Assembly: GCA_009602725.1 (NCBI GenBank)
Contig: WELB01000106.1
Location: forward strand, 88,486 to 152,485
DNA length: 64,000 nucleotides
Source: Spirogloea muscicola
Lineage: Eukaryota > Streptophyta > Zygnematophyceae > Spirogloeales > Spirogloeaceae
Reading direction: 5' to 3'
Numbering within the stretch: the stretch's first letter is position 1; each line of letters starts with the position of its first letter. Shown here piece by piece: positions 1 through 59,192 of the stretch. The position numbers and the translations under genes were made by a program. Under the pieces are notes generated by a model. That model was not told the origin of the DNA, ran no database searches, and was given only the letters and a program-made list of their open reading frames with translations.

Positions 1-113
<113 letters not shown>

Positions 114-351
114 CATTGCCGAGCGACGGCAGGCGCCCGGGCTGCGCCGCCCTAGCCGGGTTGAGGGCGAGCCCGGAGCCGCCGCCGCTGCTGGAGGACC
201 GGCGTCGGCGGCGGGGGGCTCGCACGCTGGCTCGCGGCACGGGAGCCGCCACCGAAGTGGCTCAGGCTGCGCCCGCGCTTGGCGCTGGTGCGTCCTGGTG
301 CTCCCTGAGACATGGTGCAGGATCTTGCCTCAGTTAGCCAGGTCAGGATTC
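114..351. other. GC-rich segment, no recognised gene
   Basis: Very GC-rich, resembling the first exons and promoters elsewhere in the window. The minus strand has a short ATG-initiated frame (313 down to 152) coding a Ser/Arg/Pro-rich peptide, compatible with the start of a gene running leftward away from the seryl-tRNA synthetase. It is too short and low in complexity to name, and no splice partner is visible because the window ends in poly-T. Confidence 0.3.
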
Positions 352-739
352 AGGGCTCAATGCTAGAAAAAAGAAAGAAAGCGGCTGCTGATATGAAAGA
401 ATCGGCTGTGAAATGCCAGCCAGATGCATACAGGTGTTCATGACGGAGCCAAAGGCTAGGCAGACAGGGCGCCCTCAATACCCCCGTGTCAGCAGTAGGA
501 AGTCAGATGAGCTGAGGGGAGGAAGAGCAACCCCGCTGCGCTCAATGCTTGTGGGAGCCAGGGTTCAGAGCTCAGGGTTCAGTAATCAGGGGGCAGGGTT
601 CAGGATCCAGGGTTTAGGGGTGCAGGGTTCAAGATTCAGGGGTTTAAGGTCCAGTGGGGGGGTTCCAGGGTTCTGGGTTTAAGGGTCCAGGTTTTAGGAT
701 TACAGAGCTTGGGGTTCAGGGTTCAATTCCAGGATGTAG
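352..739 (-). repeat. telomere-like array plus conserved unit (copy 1)
   Basis: Read on the minus strand, about 540-735 is a degenerate heptamer array mixing CCCTAAA and CCCTGAA. It is followed by a conserved block at about 370-535 that aligns along its length with 41855-42035. Shared landmarks include TCAGCTCAT, GACACGGGGGTA, GCGCCCTGTCTGCCT, TGTATGCA, CTGGCTGGC and ATATCAGC. The block ends in a GGCTGGC...CAGCC-like hairpin related to the LINE tails. It lies directly upstream of the seryl-tRNA synthetase start. Confidence 0.75.
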
Positions 740-3700
740 ATGTACAGGTCACTAGCTCCGTCCGCTCAGCTGAGGCTGAGAGGCCAGCTCCGCCGGTGGC
801 CATGGCGGCCTCCAGACGGCGCAGAAGGCACGGCTGCGTCGGAGCCGCCGCCGCCGCCGCCGCCGCCGCCGGTGGCGTGGAAGGCCGCCATCGACTTCCG
901 GTGGATCCGCGACAACCGCGACGCCGTGGAGCGCAACGCCGCGCTGCGGCGCTCCACCGCCGACGTCGGCAAGGTTGTCAGCCTCTATGAGGCCTTCTCC
1001 CAGAGGACGGCGGTAAGCTTATGTAGTTCCCGTTCTTGGGATGCGATCGTCTGGAACATGTCAAGCTCTTGATTTCATTCAGCACCAAAATTAATCCCAG
1101 GACATAGGATATATGGATTAGGATTCCGCTTGAGTCAGGAGGCTGTGACTTTGTTCGTAGATGAATTCCCTGATCTCTAAGCTTCTACTTAGCCTCAGTG
1201 CTTCATTTTGTATGCTCTATCTCATACTTTTATTGCCATACTGGCCACAAGAGCTGCCTGGAGCTGGCGGTCGTTGAGCCAGGTACAAGAGCCATGCTGG
1301 TTGCAGCTCCACCTGGACTGCTCATCCCAATTGGCGGCTAGTCCCTCCGCTTGCTGATGTGCAGGCTGTGGACAAACTGCGTGCGGCTCGCAATGCCGTT
1401 GCCGCCTCCATGAAGGGCAAGCTGGGCGCGGCAGAGCGGGAGACCCTCATTGAGGAAGGTGAGTTGAGCTCACTGCGTGGCCCAGAGGAGGAAGAGGCCT
1501 CGTGCTCCATTGCAGCGGCTTTGCTGCTGAGTCCGCCGCTTGACGATGACGTCCGGGTGCCGCTGCTGCGGGCAGGGAAGCGCCTCAAGGACGAGCTGGC
1601 GGGGCTCGAAGCGGAGCTGACGGAGCTCACGGACGAGCTGCAGCGCGAGGGCCAGCGCATCCCCAACATGACGCACCCCGACGTGCCGGCTGGCGGCGAG
1701 GACGTCGCCGCGCTCCGGAAGATGGTCTGTGGCCCCGTCGCCTCGAGGAGCACCAAAGCGAGGCCCTCGCAGCGGCAGTTGTGCGCCTGTCACATAGCAG
1801 GCGATGGGCAGAGGGGTCCCTCCAGGAAGGCTGTTATAGTGGACTGCTAACGTAGCAGAGTCAGCGGGTTTGGTACTAAGAATCCAAGAATATGAGAGTA
1901 ATGTTTGGGAACCATAGGATTGCCATTGCTGACTCTTGGCTGGTCTCTGGTGGAAGACCAGGTCGGCGCCAAGCGAGAATTCGACTTCCCTGTCAAGGAT
2001 CACGTTGAGCTGGGCCTTGCACTGAACCTCTTCGACTTCGACACTGCGTCCGAGGTGCGCCATCCATGCGCAGTCCACCACCCTCGCGCACCATAGCTGT
2101 TTGTGCTGGAGTGGTTGGCAGGGCTGCCACTGACGCCATGAGCTGCTTCAGCACGCCAGGTCTCCGGAACCAAGTTCTACTACCTGAAGAACGAGGCTGT
2201 TCTGCTCGAGATGGCGCTCGTCAACTGGGCTTTGTCGCAGCTTGTTGCACGTGGGTTCATGCCGCTGAGTACGCCGGACCTTGCGAGGGCGAGCGTTGTA
2301 GATAAATGCGGTTTCCAGCCGCGCGCTGAAAACACACAGGCAAGTTTCTGAGTGTCTCCTGAGCCTGAAAGCTGGATTCGCACACAGAGGGCATTGACTG
2401 ATGAGCAACACAAAGTCAGGTTGTTGGATCCTGATTTGGCAAGGCTTGACTTGCAAATTATTTTCATCGTCATACTTACAGGTCACCAATGTAATTGTGC
2501 GTTGTCAGATATATGCGATAGAGGGTATGGACCTCTGCCTGGCGGGAACGTCAGAAATTCTTGTTGGGGGGATGTTCATGGACAAAATTCTGGCGGAGGC
2601 GGACCTCCCCATGAAAGTCGTGGCTTTCTCCCACTGCTTTCGCACAGAGGCTGGCGCCGCTGGCCGCGACACCAGGTCCGCGGCAGTGATGTTCGAGGTG
2701 CAGCTCCTTTGGGCTAAGGCTCACTTCATGTGCTTCTAGAATTTGGGGTTTTTGTTAAATCTGAGGAAAGAGGAGTCCAGGGTCAAGTTGGATCGTGTGA
2801 CCTTGCTGTGGCGCTTGGCCAGCGGTGCGGCGTGTGGCATTGACCCGCATGCCACGTTGGTGTATCCACTGCCGGCAGGGGGCTGTACCGCGTTCACCAG
2901 TTTAGCAAGCTGGAGATGTTTGCGCTGAGTGCGCCCGAGGACAGCGATGCTTTGCTCGAGGAGCTCATTTGCATCGAGGAGGAGCTCTACTCGTCTCTTG
3001 GCCTGCACTTTAAGTGAGCGGCCGACGCTCACCTGCTGAAGCGGCTGAGACGAACCAGGGGCAACTTGTTGATAGATCAGAGATGCTGGAACATGCTGCT
3101 GCTTGCAGTAAAGTCCCCTAGCACTAGACCCAAATACGATGATGCTTTTGCAGCTCTGTGTGCACTTTGGATCCGTGGCATGAGGGCAGCTCCATTTAGA
3201 CGTCAGGTCAAGCACAACGCATGCTTTTTGATTGCGGAGCTTCACTCATCAAGCTTGCATGCTATGCAGGACACTGGACATGTCCACCGAAGACCTCGGC
3301 GCCCCAGCGTACCGCAAGTACGACGTGGAGGCCTGGATGCCCGGGCTCGACCGCTATGGCGAGGTATGTGCGCAAGCACCCAGCAGGGACCTCGAAGCTG
3401 ACTCTCAAGAAGCCCTAGCTCCAAGCTTTCGTGACTCTTGACTTTGAAATTCGTGCACAAGATGAACTTGACTTTTGTCAGCTGCATCTGAAATTATTGT
3501 GTGGCTCACTGTGCATGGCTGCAGATTTCAAGCGCCTCCAACTGCACTGACTACCAGGCCCGCCGGCTCAACATGCGATACCGGCCGGCCATACCTGTTG
3601 CTGGGAGTAGCGGCAGTAGTGCTGCCGAGGTGCCCGCTAGGAAGGGCAAGGCAAATGGCGCGCAGCAGCCGCCGCGATTCGTGCACACACTGAATGCGAC

Positions 3701-7896: not shown

Positions 7897-10020
7897 AAAA
7901 CCCCTGCTAAGCAGTCGCAGGTCGGAGAAGCTGGGCTCCTGGATGCGGGTCCCCAGGCCAGAGCCAGAGGCCGCAGCAAGGGCACGACCGGCATGCAAAT
8001 GCAACGCGTGAGCCATGGACCTCTGCAGCGAGGCGGACTGGCGCATTCGATACACCAGTGCGAGCGAGCCTGCAACAGGGAAGTCCACCGGCTCCCCATG
8101 GTAGCGGCGGGAGATGGCGTGGCGGGCGAGCTGGTTGAGCAGCTCGAGCCACCGAGCACCCTCCACACACTGAGTGTCGTTGGCGAGAGGGAAGAACTCG
8201 TCTTCCTGTGGATGGTCCGCATATTTCAACTCCTTGGCCCCGGCTGCGCAGGCAACGCATACCCAGCCTTGGAGGCACATTGCGAGGGGTGCCAGCGGTC
8301 GTAGGAATTCGTTGTCACCACGTCCAAGATAAGACGTGGCCCGCCAGCCAATGGGGTGGCCAAAAGGTCGACGCGGCCGGCGTGGAGACCGTCCGCCCGC
8401 TGCTGCAGCGGCATGCCTGCGGAGTTCTCGGAGGCAACCGAGAAGCCGGCCTCCACGAGGATGCCATGCATGGCATCACGGAGGAGGTCATGCGCAGCTG
8501 TCCGCTCCCCAACGAGGGCACAGCGCAGAACATGGGCCGCCAGCTCCCCAGGCTCGGCCCCCCGCTCGCCGCATTCGCACTGAAGCACACCCTGGAGGCA
8601 TGGCGGCGGCAGACCGAGGAGCCGGTGAACGGCACTGCCAAATACCTCGTCCAGGAGGGTGAGGGCGTCGGTGAGGGGGAGGGCCTGGAGCCACGCCGCT
8701 GCCCCAGGGGAAGAGGCCGAGTGGAGTCGTGCGCGCCCACGCAGGTCGGCCTTCAGGAGCTGCTGTGTGGCGGTGGCGAGGCTGCCCTGTCCATCACGGC
8801 CGCGAAGCGCGCTTGAATGCGCAGGTCGGCGGTGTGCACGAGGTGCTCGAACGAGATCACCTGTCCCGCAAGATCCGAGTGCACCGCTAGCAGCTCCCGG
8901 TGGGCTGAGCTTAGCGACACCTGGAAGGGCAGCCCACCCGTGTTGACCTCCACCACCGCCTGCTCCAACACACTCTGGCTGTGGACCAGGATCCGCTGGG
9001 ACATGGAGGCGGCTGTCTGCGCCCAGCGGCCCAGGTATGCTGCCCTGCAGGAACGGACGAGCGGATGAAGGCCGAGACCGCCGTAGCCGAGGGGCAGCGC
9101 TGCCTGGTGAAGAGCGGCAGGCGACTGGGGGAATCCCTGGTGGCGGACCAGGGCCGCCAAGCTCGCTACCATACCTGCATCGAATCCCGCGTACGCCGCT
9201 AGCGCACCTGGGGACGGCGGGGTGGCCCTCGCCCAGTATTCGGGCCTCTGCGCAGCGGCCTTTGTCAGCATGGCTTAAAGCCAGCTGCATATCTTATAGC
9301 TCGGAAAGTCGGGCCGCAGGCTGGAGGTGCTCCTCGAGTTGGGCGCGCAGCTGCCCCTCCACGAAGGTCGGCGCGCCCAAGGGGACCCCCAGGAGGGTGA
9401 AGCCGTCTGCAGGAGTCAGGCACCCGGGGGGCAGCGCCAGGGTGGATGGGAGGCCGCAGGAGGACCAAGCCGCACACTTCTCCGCCCGGGTGGACAGGCC
9501 GAGGGTGGCCAGCTGCTGCTCGAAGGTGAAGGCCGCCGCCACGTCTGCCGGGGGCCCGACCAGGGTGGTGTCATCGGCGAAAGTGGGCAGCAGGACCCCT
9601 GGGTGTGCCGCCGCGGTGGCCTGCAAGGCCCGATTGTGGGCGAGCGCAAAAGAGGAATCCGGCGAGGGGGTCCCCTTGCCGGGTGCCCCTCTGGGACTGC
9701 AGGGACCTCCACCGTGTCGCCCCCTGTCCTCCAGAGAAGGTCGCTGGGCTGGCCGTACCCGAGGCGGAAAAAGGGTAGCAGGGAGGGGAAGGCGCCCGCA
9801 GCTCTTCCGCGATGCTGTCGCGCCCCAAGCAGTTGAATGCGTTGCGCACGCCTACGGCCAGTACCATCCACCCTGGGTGCTGGTCCAAGGTTGCGCGGAC
9901 CCCGTGAGCCACGGCCTCGCCACCACTCCGCAGCCCCGCGCCGTACTGATGGGGCGCCAGGTGCGTCTGCGCCTGCCCCGCATGCTGCAGCCAGAGGACG
10001 CGGCTCAGAGGACGCGGCCC
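7897..10020 (-). mobile_element. family A LINE, 5'-truncated, RT plus endonuclease
   Basis: Non-LTR retrotransposon copy. Reading down the minus strand, the reverse transcriptase palm starts near 10000 (PHQYGAGL, then VRNAFNCLGRD at about 9849, then QRGTRQGDPLAG) and the catalytic FADD lies at about 9581. A thumb/connection region follows (LGVPLGAPTFVEGQL). Next come a cysteine-histidine finger (CECGERG...ELAAHVLRC), a restriction-like nuclease segment (RVDLLATPLAGGPRLILDVV) and the terminus SFSDLRLLSRG near 7905. The open stretches change frame several times and the 5' part of the element is missing, so the copy is dead. The C-terminal nuclease rather than an N-terminal APE places it among RLE-type LINEs; the clade is not assigned. 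Confidence 0.82.
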
Positions 10021-10934: not shown

Positions 10935-11270
10935 TGCTCACCGCTCTTAGGCCCCTCTGAACCTTTGTGAATTCTTTTTGGGCTGGCTTTTCGCAGCCCT
11001 TGCCCCCATTGGGAGTGCCACTTCTTTCTTTTGCCCGTCACAATATGCAGCTGGCAAGCCCATCTCAGCCAGAAACACGAAGAAGAAGTGGCACTCCCAA
11101 TGGGGGCAAGGGCTGCGAGAAGCCAGCCCAAAAAGAATTGACAAAGGTTTGGAGGGGCGATTAGCGGCTACAAAGAAGAAGAAGTGGCACTCCCAATGGG
11201 GGCAAGGGCTGCGAAAAGCCAGCCCAAAAAGAATTCACAAAGGTTCAGAGGGGCCTAAGAGCGGTGAGCA
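10935..11270. repeat. perfect 92-bp inverted repeat of LINE tails
   Basis: 10935-11026 and 11179-11270 are exact reverse complements over 92 bases, each holding the LINE 3' hairpin GGGCTGGCTTTTCGCAGCCC. The 152-base spacer holds a third, slightly diverged tail copy (about 11086-11152, minus) and a piece of family B (ATGCAGCTGGCAAGCCCATC at about 11044). The identical arms imply recent formation or gene conversion. Confidence 0.85.
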
Positions 11271-11374: not shown

Positions 11375-12401
11375 GGCGGTCTCCTTAGTGCACCTCGCGC
11401 ACACCGCGGACCTGCGGGTCCAAGCGCGCTTCGCGGCCGTGGTCGACAAGGCCGCCTCCACCACCGCCGTGCTGCAGCTCCCCGAGGCCGACCTGTGCGG
11501 GCGCGCGAGACTCCACTCGGCCGCTTCCCCGGGGGCAGCGGCGTGGCTCCAGGCCCTCCCACTCAACGACGCCCTCGCCCTCCCGGACGAGGTATTCCGG
11601 AGTGCCGTCCACAGGCTCCTCGGCCTGCCGCCGCCATGCCTCCAGGGCGTGCGTCAATGTGAGTGTGGTGAGCGTGGGGCCGAGCAGGGGGAGCTGGCCG
11701 CTCACGTTCTGCGCTGCTCGCACGGCGGAGAGCGGACAGCGGCCCATGACCGCCTCCGGGACGCAATGCACGGCATCCTGGTGGAGGCTGGCTTCTCTGT
11801 GGCAGCGGAGCACTCTGGGATCATGCCGCTCCAGGACAGGGCCGACGGTCTCCACGCCCGTCGTGTGGACCTGGTGGCCACCCCACAGGTCGGCGGGCCA
11901 CGTCTCCTCCTGGACGTGGTGACTACCGACGCATTCGACCGATCCCACCCGGCCCAGTGTGCAACCAAGCCTGGGTATGCGGTCGCCTGCGCCGCTCGTG
12001 CCAAAGAACTCAAGTACGCAGACCATCCGCCAGCTGACGAGTTCTTCCCGCTGGCCATCGACACACACGGGGCGTTGGGTGCCCGGTGGCTCGAACTGCT
12101 CCACCAGCTTGCCCGTCACGCCGTCGCCCGCCGCTTCCATGGGGAGCCGGTGGACTTCCTGCAGCTGGGTCGCTCGCCCAGGTGTACCGCATGCGCCTGG
12201 CCGTCTCGCTGCAGAGGTCAATGGCCCGTGCGCTGCACCTGCGTGCCGGCCGAGCCCTCGCTGCTGCCTCTGGCTCTGGCCAGGGGACAAACTTCCAGGA
12301 GCATAGTCTCTCTGACCTGCGACTGCTTAGCAGGGGTTACTGAGTGATTAGTAGCTGCTTTGTTTCTTCTTGTGTGCTTGTCTTTCTTAGTGCTTCAACT
12401 A
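11375..12401 (+). mobile_element. family A LINE, 3' half
   Basis: A long open stretch (11388-12347) covers the region after the reverse transcriptase: HTADLRVQARFAAVVDKA, the finger CECGERG...ELAAHVLRC (C-x1-C-x12-H-x3-C), then the nuclease segment RRVDLVATPQVGGPRLLLDV with candidate acidic residues, then DHPPADEFFPLA. Near 12170 the reading moves to another frame, which carries VYRMRLAVSLQRSMARALHL and ends SLSDLRLLSRGY-stop at 12343. The copy therefore has one visible frame break and lacks the RT half. The 3' UTR begins AGTGATTAGTAGCTGC. Confidence 0.82.
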
Positions 12402-27739: not shown

Positions 27740-41604
<13,865 letters not shown>

Positions 41605-44600
41605 TCGAGCCGGCTCTGGCGCAGAGCTCGGGCGGGGCGGCGGGCGGGGGGGCCCGGGCGGGCGCGCGCGCGCTGAGCGCCGCCTTCCTGCTCGTCTTCC
41701 TGGCCTTCGGCGCCGCCCAGAACCTCGAGAGCACGCTCAACCAGGTGCGCGCGCGCCGCCTCGCAGGGGCTCAGGGCTCAGCGGCCTGAACCCCAGATCC
41801 TAAGCCCCAAAGCCTAAACTCTAAACCCTGAAACCTAAACCCTGAATCCAAAACCCTTTCCTGGGGTTCTCATTCCTCTTCCTCCTATCAGCTCATTTGA
41901 CTTTCCAATCACTGACACGGGGGTACTGAGAGCGCCCTGTCTGCCTCGCCTGTGGGTCCGCTGATATGGTCATGAGCACCCCCTGTATGCACACCTGGCT
42001 GGCTGTCACGGCCGCTCTTCCAATATCAGCCGCCGCATTTGTGCTTTGCTCATCCCCCAGAAAGCTGGCCGAGCCTTAGCTGGTGGTGGTGGCACATGGG
42101 CTCGTCAGTTTGCCGTCCGGTCGTCGGCCACCAGTTTGCGTCCTCTACGTGCTGACTCGTGGTTACCGCGAGCGGGTCAGCTTAGCAGCAGGCGATGTAC
42201 ACCTGTCAGTGTGCTTGCCTTTGGTACTTGGCCACTCCGGCCCTCCATCCCTCAGCACCACTCCATCTCCTCCTCCCCTCCCGTCCTCCCCGCATTCCAT
42301 GGCTGACTGCTGCGTCGGCTGGCCTGGCGGCGCGGCGGCAGGACGCCGGCCTGGGCTCGGCGGCGCTGGGCCTCGTCTACTGCGCCCTCACGGCCTCGTC
42401 GCTCGCCGCGCCCGCCGCCGTCGCGCGCCTGGGCGCCCGCCGCGGCCTCCTCCTCGGCCTCGCCGGCTACTGGCTCTTCATGGCCGCCAACCTCCGCCCC
42501 TCCTGGTCCTCCCCGCCTCCACTGGGCGCCCTGCCTCGTCTCCAGTCTCGGCTTTGCCACCACGGCAGTCGCCCTCTGAGGACAATCCGAGTCGTGCGTC
42601 CCTGAGACGGGCGCCCAGCTGCTGGCGCAGCACGGGCTCGCCATGCGGCCAGGTACACCTTGCCGCCAGCGGCCCTGCTGCTGGGTTGCACGGCCTCCGT
42701 CCTCTGGGTGGCCCAGGTAGCCCCCCTTCTCTCCGAAGAACGACTAGGGGTCAGGGTTACATAGAGCAGAGGTTTACGCGTGCAAAGTCATTAGACTGCC
42801 GCTGTATATCTTTTACATAGTTGCAACTCTGCATTGCGTGGCCGGATGGTGAGAAATTGGTCTTGCTGCAGCCAACCTTGGCCTTGTGGTCCTGTCTTCA
42901 GGGCACCTACCTGACGCTCTTAGCTAAGAGCCACGCTGCAGCCAGCGGCATATCCGAGGCCACTGTGCTGGGGCAGTTCAACGGGGAATTCTGGTCGATC
43001 ATGGCCAGCAATCAGGTACATGACAGGAAATATGCAGTTGTCTCCTGCTTGCATGCTTTCAGTGAGCCAGCCAGCCAGCTCAGTGCTGCCAGTTACTTAA
43101 CTTATACTGAAAGCAAAGCGTAGATCCGCTGTGAATGTCTTATACATGTAAAGGCATCTGACGCAGTAGGAAACGCTGCTGACTTTGCTGTCCTTGCCTC
43201 TGTCCTTCCTGCAGCTACTTGGGAATCTGCTGGCCATGCTGATCCTTTCACACAATGTAGGTTCACTGACCTACCCATTCATTGGCAGAATGCAGATCTT
43301 GGCGGGTATGGCCCTTGCCTGCATCATTCTGAATCCAGTTCTCAATTATGACCCTCAGTCACATCCTCGTTCAGCCACCATACATCAGACATACTGACAA
43401 TCAACTACGCAGCTATTATGACCTGACTCAAAAAATTCTGCTTTCAAGCAGGGAAAAGCAGGTGCCATTTCGCCGGGTACAATGAGGCTGCTGTTCCTCG
43501 CTTTCCTTGTGTGCATGACATTTGGGACCATCATCATTGCCCTCCTCAGGGAGCCAGCGGCAAAGCAGCACCAGTTGCCCGTTGACGATCTCAAAGAGCG
43601 TGAGAGCACGCTTGTAACCATGCTGGGGCTGCTCAAGTCGAGGAGGACCCAGCTGCTTCTCCCTGTAATGGTGTACACAGGACTGCAGCAGGCTTTTATC
43701 TGGTGCAACCGATTGCCTGCAACATTGTTTTAGCAAGTCCCTTGGAAGATCAACTACAAGACCCTCATTATCCAATTCATGTTGCTCATACTCCTTGACC
43801 CTCTTCTGTGCCAAAGTTTGGTCTTACTTACACTGTCTGCCTTAAGGGCAGTTTGGTACTCACTCTGTGTTGGTCTGACACAGCATATCCTGCACAATAT
43901 GGGGAAGGTTGACTCATCGTTGACCTGTCCATGTGCTCTGCAGGGGTGATTTTACAAGGGATATCATTAGTCCCCACATGGGACTTGCTTGGGTTCCTGG
44001 TGTCATGGCCATCTATGGAGGATCGGATGCCATCGTGAGCCCACCCCTTGCTGCCACTTACTTGGCCAGACTGGATCTGTACACAGTATTCTGGCTCGTG
44101 ATGGATACAGTTGACACCAGTAACAGAGCTGCACATACATCACAATGTCATGGTGGCTTTGTCTGCAGAGCTCCGCTGCTGCGGGCTTTCTTGCATCAAG
44201 CATCAAATCCCTTTGTTGGATTTTCGCCATTGGCATCGTTGCACAGCTTGTGGTGATGCTCCTCCTCTTCTGGCATCGGTAAGAACGTAATCTCCTGTAT
44301 AGTGTCAAACCAAGTCATCTTGTCAGCCGGTCTAGTGGATAACTACCTGCGTCAATGCATGACTGATTTATTGCCGAGGAGTCGGACTTTATATCTTCTG
44401 GCTGCAGCACGTTCAGATTGCAGTTACATATTGTCTTGTACTGTCTGCGTGCTTTGTGCTCTGCTTAGCTCTTCTGGCACTCTTTTGTGCCTCTGCTTGC
44501 AGCTGGGAGCCGGTGTCCATTATCCTCTCTGCAATCCTGTGGGGTATGGGTGATGCAGTTTGTAACACAAACATGAGTGCACTTCTGGGAGCACTCTACT

Positions 44601-52229: not shown

Positions 52230-53169
52230 AAAGAGAGTGTATTAATAAAAGATGGAGGGCCATGTGTGGCCAAGTACAAAGGTAAGCACATTGACAAATG
52301 TACGTCACCCTGCTGCTAAGCTGACCCGCTCAGTAACCACGAGTCAGCACATAGAGGTCACTAACTGATGCCCGAATACCGGACGGCACTCGACAACCTC
52401 TAGAGCTACCAGCTAAGGCTCGACCAGCTTTTTGATGCAATGCATGAGCCTGAGCTCGCTGCAGACAAACTGATACTCGACGTCGCAAGAACGACGAGAA
52501 GGCTGCCGGCATGCCCAGCTGAGCTGGAAGCATATCCTCACGACGTGCATATCCCAAGCTTGCAATCTTCTCCAGCAAGGTGTGAAAGCGAGGGCCTATG
52601 CAGCCGAATGTGTCGATGGCCGCCGGTAGGAGATGATCGCTGCGGGGGGAGTCAGAGTAGTGTCGGAGCTTTCTCTGCTCAGCACCTCCCACCGCGTGGC
52701 CAGAAATATGTGTCGAAGCGGAACTCTTGTATGCCTCTGTCACCACCACGTCAACCAAGGCTCGTGGGCCTCCGCCAGGTTGTACACCCACAATGTCCAG
52801 GGTGCGACGGTGATGACGTCCCTGGGAATTCGTGGTGATGGGCATTACATTGCTCACTTCCACGATGGCGCGGTAGCCGGCGTCGCGCATGAAGCCTGCC
52901 AGGGCGTCCCGTAGGAGATTGTGGACGCCAACCACCTCAGGGCCTGTGGGACACCGCAGCATGTGGGTGGCAAGGTCTCCACCCTCCGCACGGAAGCCGC
53001 ACTCACATTGCGTCACTCCAATTAGGCAGGTCGGGGGCAGGTCGGGGGGTGTGGGATTGTTTTTGGGGTGGATGACTGGCGCAGATGCAGAATGGTGCAT
53101 CAAGGGATGTCCAACGAACTGTGCCTTACACGCACGTATGCATGCGCTCCTCCCCCTACCCCAAGCCAA
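52230..53169 (-). mobile_element. family B LINE, finger and endonuclease region intact
   Basis: A minus-strand frame open over 279 codons covers the C-terminal region of a non-LTR element. The finger C-x1-C-x11-H-x3-C (Cys55, Cys57, His69, Cys73) starts at CECGFRAEGG. A restriction-like nuclease core follows, RRTLDIVGVQPGGGPRALVD with VVVTEAYK, giving candidate acidic residues Asp125 and Asp140. Then come GCIGPRFHTLLEKIASLGYA and the terminus VSDLYVLTRGY at 52330. The 3' UTR includes TTGGCCACACATGGCC (hairpin) near 52262. The reverse transcriptase half is not recognisable upstream, so the element is truncated although this domain is unbroken, suggesting a younger insertion than the other family B pieces. 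Confidence 0.82.
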
Positions 53170-59125: not shown

Positions 59126-59192
59126 CTCCCTCCGTATGCACCTGGCTGGCTTTCACAGCCGCTCGTTTACTATCGGCAGCCGCATTCTTCGT
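59126..59192 (+). repeat. conserved unit, partial copy 3
   Basis: GTATGCACCTGGCTGGCTTT, CACAGCCGCTC and ATCGGCAGCCGCATT match 41972-42040 and the inverse of 370-437. It lies in the upstream region of the receptor kinase, about 180 bases before its ATG. There is no telomere-like array beside this copy. Confidence 0.65.

Follow-up and report, generated by a model that had tools for sequence, protein, structure and literature searches.

TRAS and SART in insects and Zepp in Chlorella are LINEs that target telomeric repeats, so that in these systems a retroelement comes to lie next to telomere-like DNA by design. Telomere repeats have also been described at internal sites of chromosomes. In mammals, interstitial telomeric sequences have been shown to be inserted at double-strand breaks, with examples from primates and rodents (PMC2246262) and from human and horse (PMC7215372). 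In the available text of these two reports, the insertions are accompanied by deletions, additions or duplications of the flanks, show microhomology to the repeat and carry fewer mismatches when they are young (PMC2246262; PMC7215372). The available part of a review states that such sequences are often flanked by mobile elements (PMC6410037), and an available portion of a further report places interstitial telomere repeats in Chlamydomonas (PMC6549138).

At the locus considered here, a conserved block adjoins a degenerate telomere-like array upstream of a seryl-tRNA synthetase gene. It lies in the window, the whole stretch of 64,000 nucleotides that was analysed (C106:88486-152485 in G000), which comes from an assembly of 153 Mb in 471 contigs and whose introns and telomere repeats identify the DNA as that of a eukaryote. 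Two parts of the window, 740-1500 and 40300-41260, are each found twice more in the genome, on C10 and C163, where the stretches keep the order that they have in the window at an identity of 85-88% (Table 1). Three syntenic copies of window parts suggest, from the few stretches compared, a polyploid, triplicated or uncollapsed genome. The seryl-tRNA synthetase gene has a putative ATG at 802, and the exon that follows the piece listed in Table 1 (1374-1724) matches PF02403 above the cut-off (E 5.8e-7); a second gene is called UNC93-like after the preliminary description of this DNA, and its match to PF05978 is below the cut-off (E 0.015). Pure T runs occupy window 1-113 (113 bases) and 41379-41502 (124 bases), the latter directly 5' of an N gap, with A runs beside N near the corresponding place in both syntenic copies; both T runs are possibly gap-filling artefacts.

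A motif scan of the window finds three degenerate TTTAGGG/TTCAGGG arrays, at ~498-750 (+), 40726-40865 (-) and 41732-41910 (-), coordinates that include a 120-bp scan margin. At the three higher thresholds 20 dinucleotide shuffles contained no array, and at the lowest they averaged 0.1, which confirms that the window arrays are far above chance and that the preliminary description was right to see a telomere-like array here. The arrays measure ~75-190 bp, and on either side of them the sequence is collinear in the syntenic copies. The array upstream of seryl-tRNA synthetase ends ~67 bp before the putative ATG. The second array (40738-40855) is present in C106 and C10 and absent from C163, and the third (41785-41858) is present in C106 and C163, with C10 having other LINE-like sequence at that place. 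At 4/4 array sites examined the three syntenic copies differ in array presence or length. Across the genome, one degenerate form, taken as a 17-mer, is found at 20 places spread over 19 contigs (control 0), and runs of five perfect units yield 552 overlapping matches.

At the start of contig C22, CCCTAAA repeats are followed by a degenerate array and then by a LINE-like tail, and this start probably represents a chromosome end. Repeats of the same unit at internal sites make the window arrays interstitial telomeric sequences, and they resemble those of mammals, as these are described in the available text, in being short internal repeat stretches that can be defined against an empty orthologous locus (PMC2246262; PMC7215372). 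Such an empty orthologous site is found both for the array at 40738-40855 and for a gain of repeats in C163 that is described below. Two other places with perfect repeats were observed. Inside contig C7, perfect (CCCTGAA)n repeats run for at least 700 bases, from ~259666 to 260377 and further; they lie next to N and are either a genuine variant array or an artefact of assembly. On C9 at ~1167054 (L056), a perfect TTTAGGG stretch inside the contig lies between two copies of GGGGCGACCC, which may be a flank duplication made when telomere repeats were inserted.

The block beside the first array (368-541) is a dispersed repeat. A search of the genome with 352-739 gave 45 matching stretches, with 40 scored of 2059 candidates, and all 45 were fetched with their flanks; since the 40 best-scored first-look candidates were used, the aligned copies are biased towards an intact block. 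At 38/38 other aligned loci the block continues into more LINE sequence and not into telomere-like repeats. At these 38 loci, the 5' truncation falls at varying points between 206 and ~1000 bp away from the tail, and the tail end is nearly constant (the right end is hidden by N in 8/39 copies). An exact 35-mer from the LINE 3' end occurs 354 times genome-wide (178 on the + strand and 176 on the - strand; control 0). Copies that share a nearly constant tail but break off at different points on the other side are typical of LINEs truncated at the 5' end, here with their sense on the window minus strand, and the block is the reversed 3' end of an abundant, 5'-truncated LINE-like retroelement.

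Target-site duplications are found across the family. Of 39 copies examined for a flank match, 8 with N at the right end were dropped, and 20 of the remaining 31 have a match of at least 6 bp, as against 15.9% of mismatched pairs; the mean match is 6.8 versus 4.6 in mismatched pairs, and the highest of 300 shuffles reached 5.14. Counted among these 31 are the compound copies L011, L015 and L023 and also the window copy, for which block position 174 was chosen by hand as the right end. With many copies, a nearly constant tail end and duplications, the proposal of a mobile retroelement is borne out, in that the block belongs to a family of such elements whose 3' tail is of the LINE type, and the occurrence of the block across the whole assembly (with its 354 exact tails) points to a mobile element and not to a local duplication.

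In longer copies, the C-terminal part of an ORF is found, with its stop codon within the block. A 296-residue piece of this ORF gave 144 matching stretches (best 132 of 19599 candidates scored); many of the better stretches are in open frames of 1,340-1,490 residues, among them a frame of 1,488 residues at C105:397310, and three are in longer frames (1,554, 4,757 and 13,193). The C-terminal domain has no match in Pfam or NCBIfam, and none in the PDB, at E up to 1, and its predicted structure (three window rows) has a mean pLDDT of 38.4 and was set aside. In a related window copy, the C-terminal domain is 47% identical to that of this family over 173 residues; directly upstream of it, on the strand that encodes it, a FADD motif is present at 9297-9851(-), with an RVT_1 match below the cut-off (E 0.14). 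None of the best 150 listed RVT_1 places (985 candidates) coincides with the listed places of this family when compared by eye. Because the RVT_1 match is weak and in a relative only, the assignment to LINEs comes mainly from anatomy and target-site duplications. Like other non-LTR retrotransposons, the element has a nearly constant 3' end that closes in a short simple-sequence tail, 5' truncation at varying points, target-site duplications that differ in length and long open frames around the matched C-terminal domain; it differs from them in that this domain is not one that Pfam or NCBIfam recognises and in that reverse transcriptase is a weak match in a relative only. Degraded related LINE-like copies were also observed in the window at 7897-9851 (-), 11478-12134 (+) and 52333-53040 (-), with C-terminal domains ~46-50% identical. 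A 96-bp unit repeated x1.8 at 11079-11254, beginning GAAGAAGAAGTGGCACTCCC, probably belongs to a further LINE family as its 3' tail; in L097 a tail like it lies against a GGGTTCG array.

Table 1. Coordinates of the features discussed, in window positions unless a contig or locus is given.
Feature	Position	Strand	Basis or remark
Left stub of telomere-like array, ending in the left target-site duplication copy	345..364	+	
Left target-site duplication copy, GCTCAATGCT	355-364	+	
5'-truncated LINE 3' end	365..541	- (sense)	dispersed-repeat matches; nearly fixed tail end, variable other end
Right target-site duplication copy, GCTCAATGCT	540..549	+	flank comparison
Degenerate TTCAGGG/TTTAGGG array, G-rich on +	550..735	+	TRF period 7 at 559-725
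Seryl-tRNA synthetase exon piece, N-terminal domain	872..1009	+	PF02403, E 1.1e-4, below cut-off
Degenerate telomere-like array, C-rich on +	40738..40855	-	motif scan; absent from the preliminary description
Degenerate array, C-rich on +, UNC93-like first intron	41785..41858	-	TRF 41816-41857
Old LINE 3' remnant, UNC93-like first intron	41873..42047	+ (sense)	76% identical to block 368-541
56-bp LINE 3'-tail scrap	59134..59189	+	84% identical to block positions 8-64
Syntenic counterparts of window stretches	C10 409.6-446.4 kb; C163 226.9-260.5 kb		~85-88% identity
41-bp gain in old LINE remnant	L091:525-565 = C163:225924-225964		three perfect TTTAGGG units and a cut fourth

Upstream of seryl-tRNA synthetase, the LINE piece consists of the final ORF codons with the stop, the 3' UTR and a short (CTTT)n-like tail adjoining 365, and its final two bases overlap the right target-site duplication. 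It is 98-100% identical to the 39 other best-scored matches in its own genome and agrees with two fetched copies (L009 and L010) at every position over 174 bp, so that the insertion looks recent. The 10-bp duplication sits within the array, with only the LINE piece between its two copies, and telomere-like sequence, GGATTCAGGGCTCAATGCT, is also found on the far (left) side of the block.

The decisive result for the order of events comes from the empty sites. At the corresponding place on C10 (L092) a collinear array is found without the LINE block, and on C163 (L093) the array is shorter and likewise without it. When the window flanks are joined computationally, the C106 array aligns to the C10 array across the insertion point. 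As both syntenic copies have the array without the LINE piece, the array is older and the LINE inserted into it; the insertion, of ~175 bp, went into an existing array and made the 10-bp duplication. Arrays of the same kind lie at several gene-proximal places and vary between syntenic copies, with one gain of 41 bp. These observations are very probably to be read together as a LINE insertion into a pre-existing degenerate array and as dispersed arrays that are interstitial telomeric sequences, presumably laid down at breaks, with no single mobile unit and with a LINE subfamily that has no preference for telomere-like DNA. Array and LINE tail come from two unrelated, ordinary processes that overlap by chance.

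The preliminary description had instead taken array and block to move or be copied as one piece, possibly as a non-autonomous retroelement that carries telomere-like DNA, on the ground that the same junction recurs in two copies. Array and LINE tail are indeed in contact at two places in the window, as a composite retroelement with telomere-like DNA fused to a LINE tail would have them, but the breakpoint is not common to the two. The LINE piece of copy 1 reaches as far as block position 174, where the target-site duplication follows, and in copy 2, in the UNC93-like intron, homology stops near block position 163 and different sequence follows (TGAGAACCCCAGGAAAGGG...). The recurrence of the block in copy 2 stands in so far as this sequence is related to it; it is an older LINE remnant, 76% identical, and a remnant is found at this position in all three syntenic copies. 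Similarly, a third piece that had been reported is a real LINE-tail scrap (59134-59189), and a motif scan of the window finds no telomere-like array beside it.

Other copies of the remnant point the same way. Among divergent copies matching 41790-42060 (best 40 of 1328 scored, compared by match coordinates only, with simple repeats skipped), 40/43 rows end at or before query position 188, the block edge, and none of them reaches the array; of the other three rows, one comes from the window itself and two from the syntenic C163. A composite element is also contradicted by the 38 other loci, all of which run on into LINE sequence, by the arrays without block on C10 and C163, and by the duplication that encloses the LINE piece alone, and is hardly credible as an explanation. 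In the form that requires a common junction it is rejected because of the differing breakpoints, and for the copy upstream of seryl-tRNA synthetase it is refuted by the empty sites, provided that these are not errors of assembly: the LINE landed in an older array, and the new element that had been proposed does not exist as described. A literature search found no earlier report of a fusion between such an array and a LINE tail, which is no proof of absence.

A LINE that meets telomere-like DNA by design, like TRAS, SART or Zepp, would account for the contact in another way. The locus is like these systems in that a LINE lies next to telomere-like repeats, and the G-rich strand is the one antisense to the LINE in the window copy and in both L058 and L097, as expected if the 3' end of the G strand primes reverse transcription; this orientation was read by eye in three cases, two of which are from another LINE family with inferred tails. 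It differs from them in that insertions of this LINE are dispersed and not telomeric. The telomere-like octamer AGGGYTYA was found within 30 bp of a LINE tail only twice genome-wide, as against 354 exact 35-mer tails (the octamer search used a 23-base LINE word contained in the 35-mer, so that its base of copies is at least as large), and the tail-side flanks of the other fetched copies look diverse and not like telomere repeats. One of the two is the window copy and the other, on C25, looks like a chance match, the rest of the spacer there not being telomere-like; about 0.7 such cases would be expected at equal base frequencies, by estimate. Telomere targeting is thus rejected for this LINE subfamily, whose insertions are dispersed, and is very improbable as the origin of the contact.

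Contact of LINE and array occurs elsewhere. In 119.8 kb of fetched sequence (40 loci) two arrays were found, the window's own and one ~600 bp from the LINE copy L018, and LINE-like tails from a different family abut telomere-like DNA in L058, where a contig begins, and in L097, which is close to the end of a contig and is one of three degenerate-array places fetched out of 20. From L058, L097 and L018 it follows that such contact is not unique, and it is perhaps mostly found near chromosome ends.

How the arrays themselves arose is less certain than the order of insertion, and the clearest example is a difference in C163, where an old LINE remnant has 41 bp that are mostly TTTAGGG repeats, with GGCT on both sides and no companion sequence. 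The insert is absent at 42/42 matched sites in fetched LINE copies, the window's included, and from the C106 and C10 remnants, and the difference is therefore polarised as a gain. The gain is what would be expected if telomere repeats were added at breaks. In the sequence of events proposed, chromosome breaks would receive short telomeric repeats, from telomerase or from telomeric DNA copied at the broken 3' end, end joining would close the break, and the repeats would decay by mutation into the CCCTGAA-rich degenerate form; the 5'-truncated LINE copy of ~175 bp was inserted into one such older array, upstream of seryl-tRNA synthetase. Several traits of the mammalian cases, as given in the available text, are shared here, namely fewer mismatches in younger examples, some duplications of the flanks and insertion within repetitive elements (PMC2246262; PMC7215372). 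The present case differs from these in its TTTAGGG unit, in coming from a non-mammalian eukaryote and in being a comparison of syntenic copies within one genome, with one clean gain. The origin by break repair is uncertain because it is drawn from one clean gain and from presence or absence of arrays, and slippage or exchange of subtelomeric DNA could do likewise.

Birth of the arrays as ordinary microsatellites that grow by slippage, with no part for telomerase, would fit a flank of the C163 gain (TGTGGCT TATGGCT) that roughly shares its 7-bp register with the repeats, and also the long perfect (CCCTGAA)n array on C7. It is unlikely all the same, since the unit is that of the C22-start repeats and recurs at unlinked sites, and since the only period-7 row in the TRF list of the window is the array upstream of seryl-tRNA synthetase. 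Still less probable is an origin of the arrays in subtelomeric DNA, which the preliminary description had named as a second possibility, brought inward through exchange or duplication of segments and not by insertion at breaks. Translocation of telomeric DNA is allowed for in the available part of a review (PMC6410037), and DNA of this composition, with CCCTAAA repeats, degenerate array and LINE-like tail, does exist at a contig end, on C22; against this stand the shortness of the window arrays between collinear flanks and the size of the C163 gain, 41 bp, with no companion sequence.

A gene-directed role of the arrays, like that of a telo-box, is not favoured either, because the arrays come and go among syntenic copies and have opposite strand bias at two genes, being G-rich relative to the coding strand before seryl-tRNA synthetase and C-rich in the UNC93-like intron.

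With insertion into older telomere-like DNA established by the empty sites and the target-site duplication, the claimed new class of element is removed, and what remains is for the most part ordinary, its most interesting part being the fresh gain of 41 bp in C163. Comparison of three copies makes the gain of telomere repeats in genic DNA countable within a single genome. It may be, although this is put forward tentatively, that this genome often adds short telomere-repeat tracts to its genic DNA, so that telomerase or copied telomeric DNA would routinely be used to patch breaks in introns and promoters, of which old LINE remnants would preserve datable examples.
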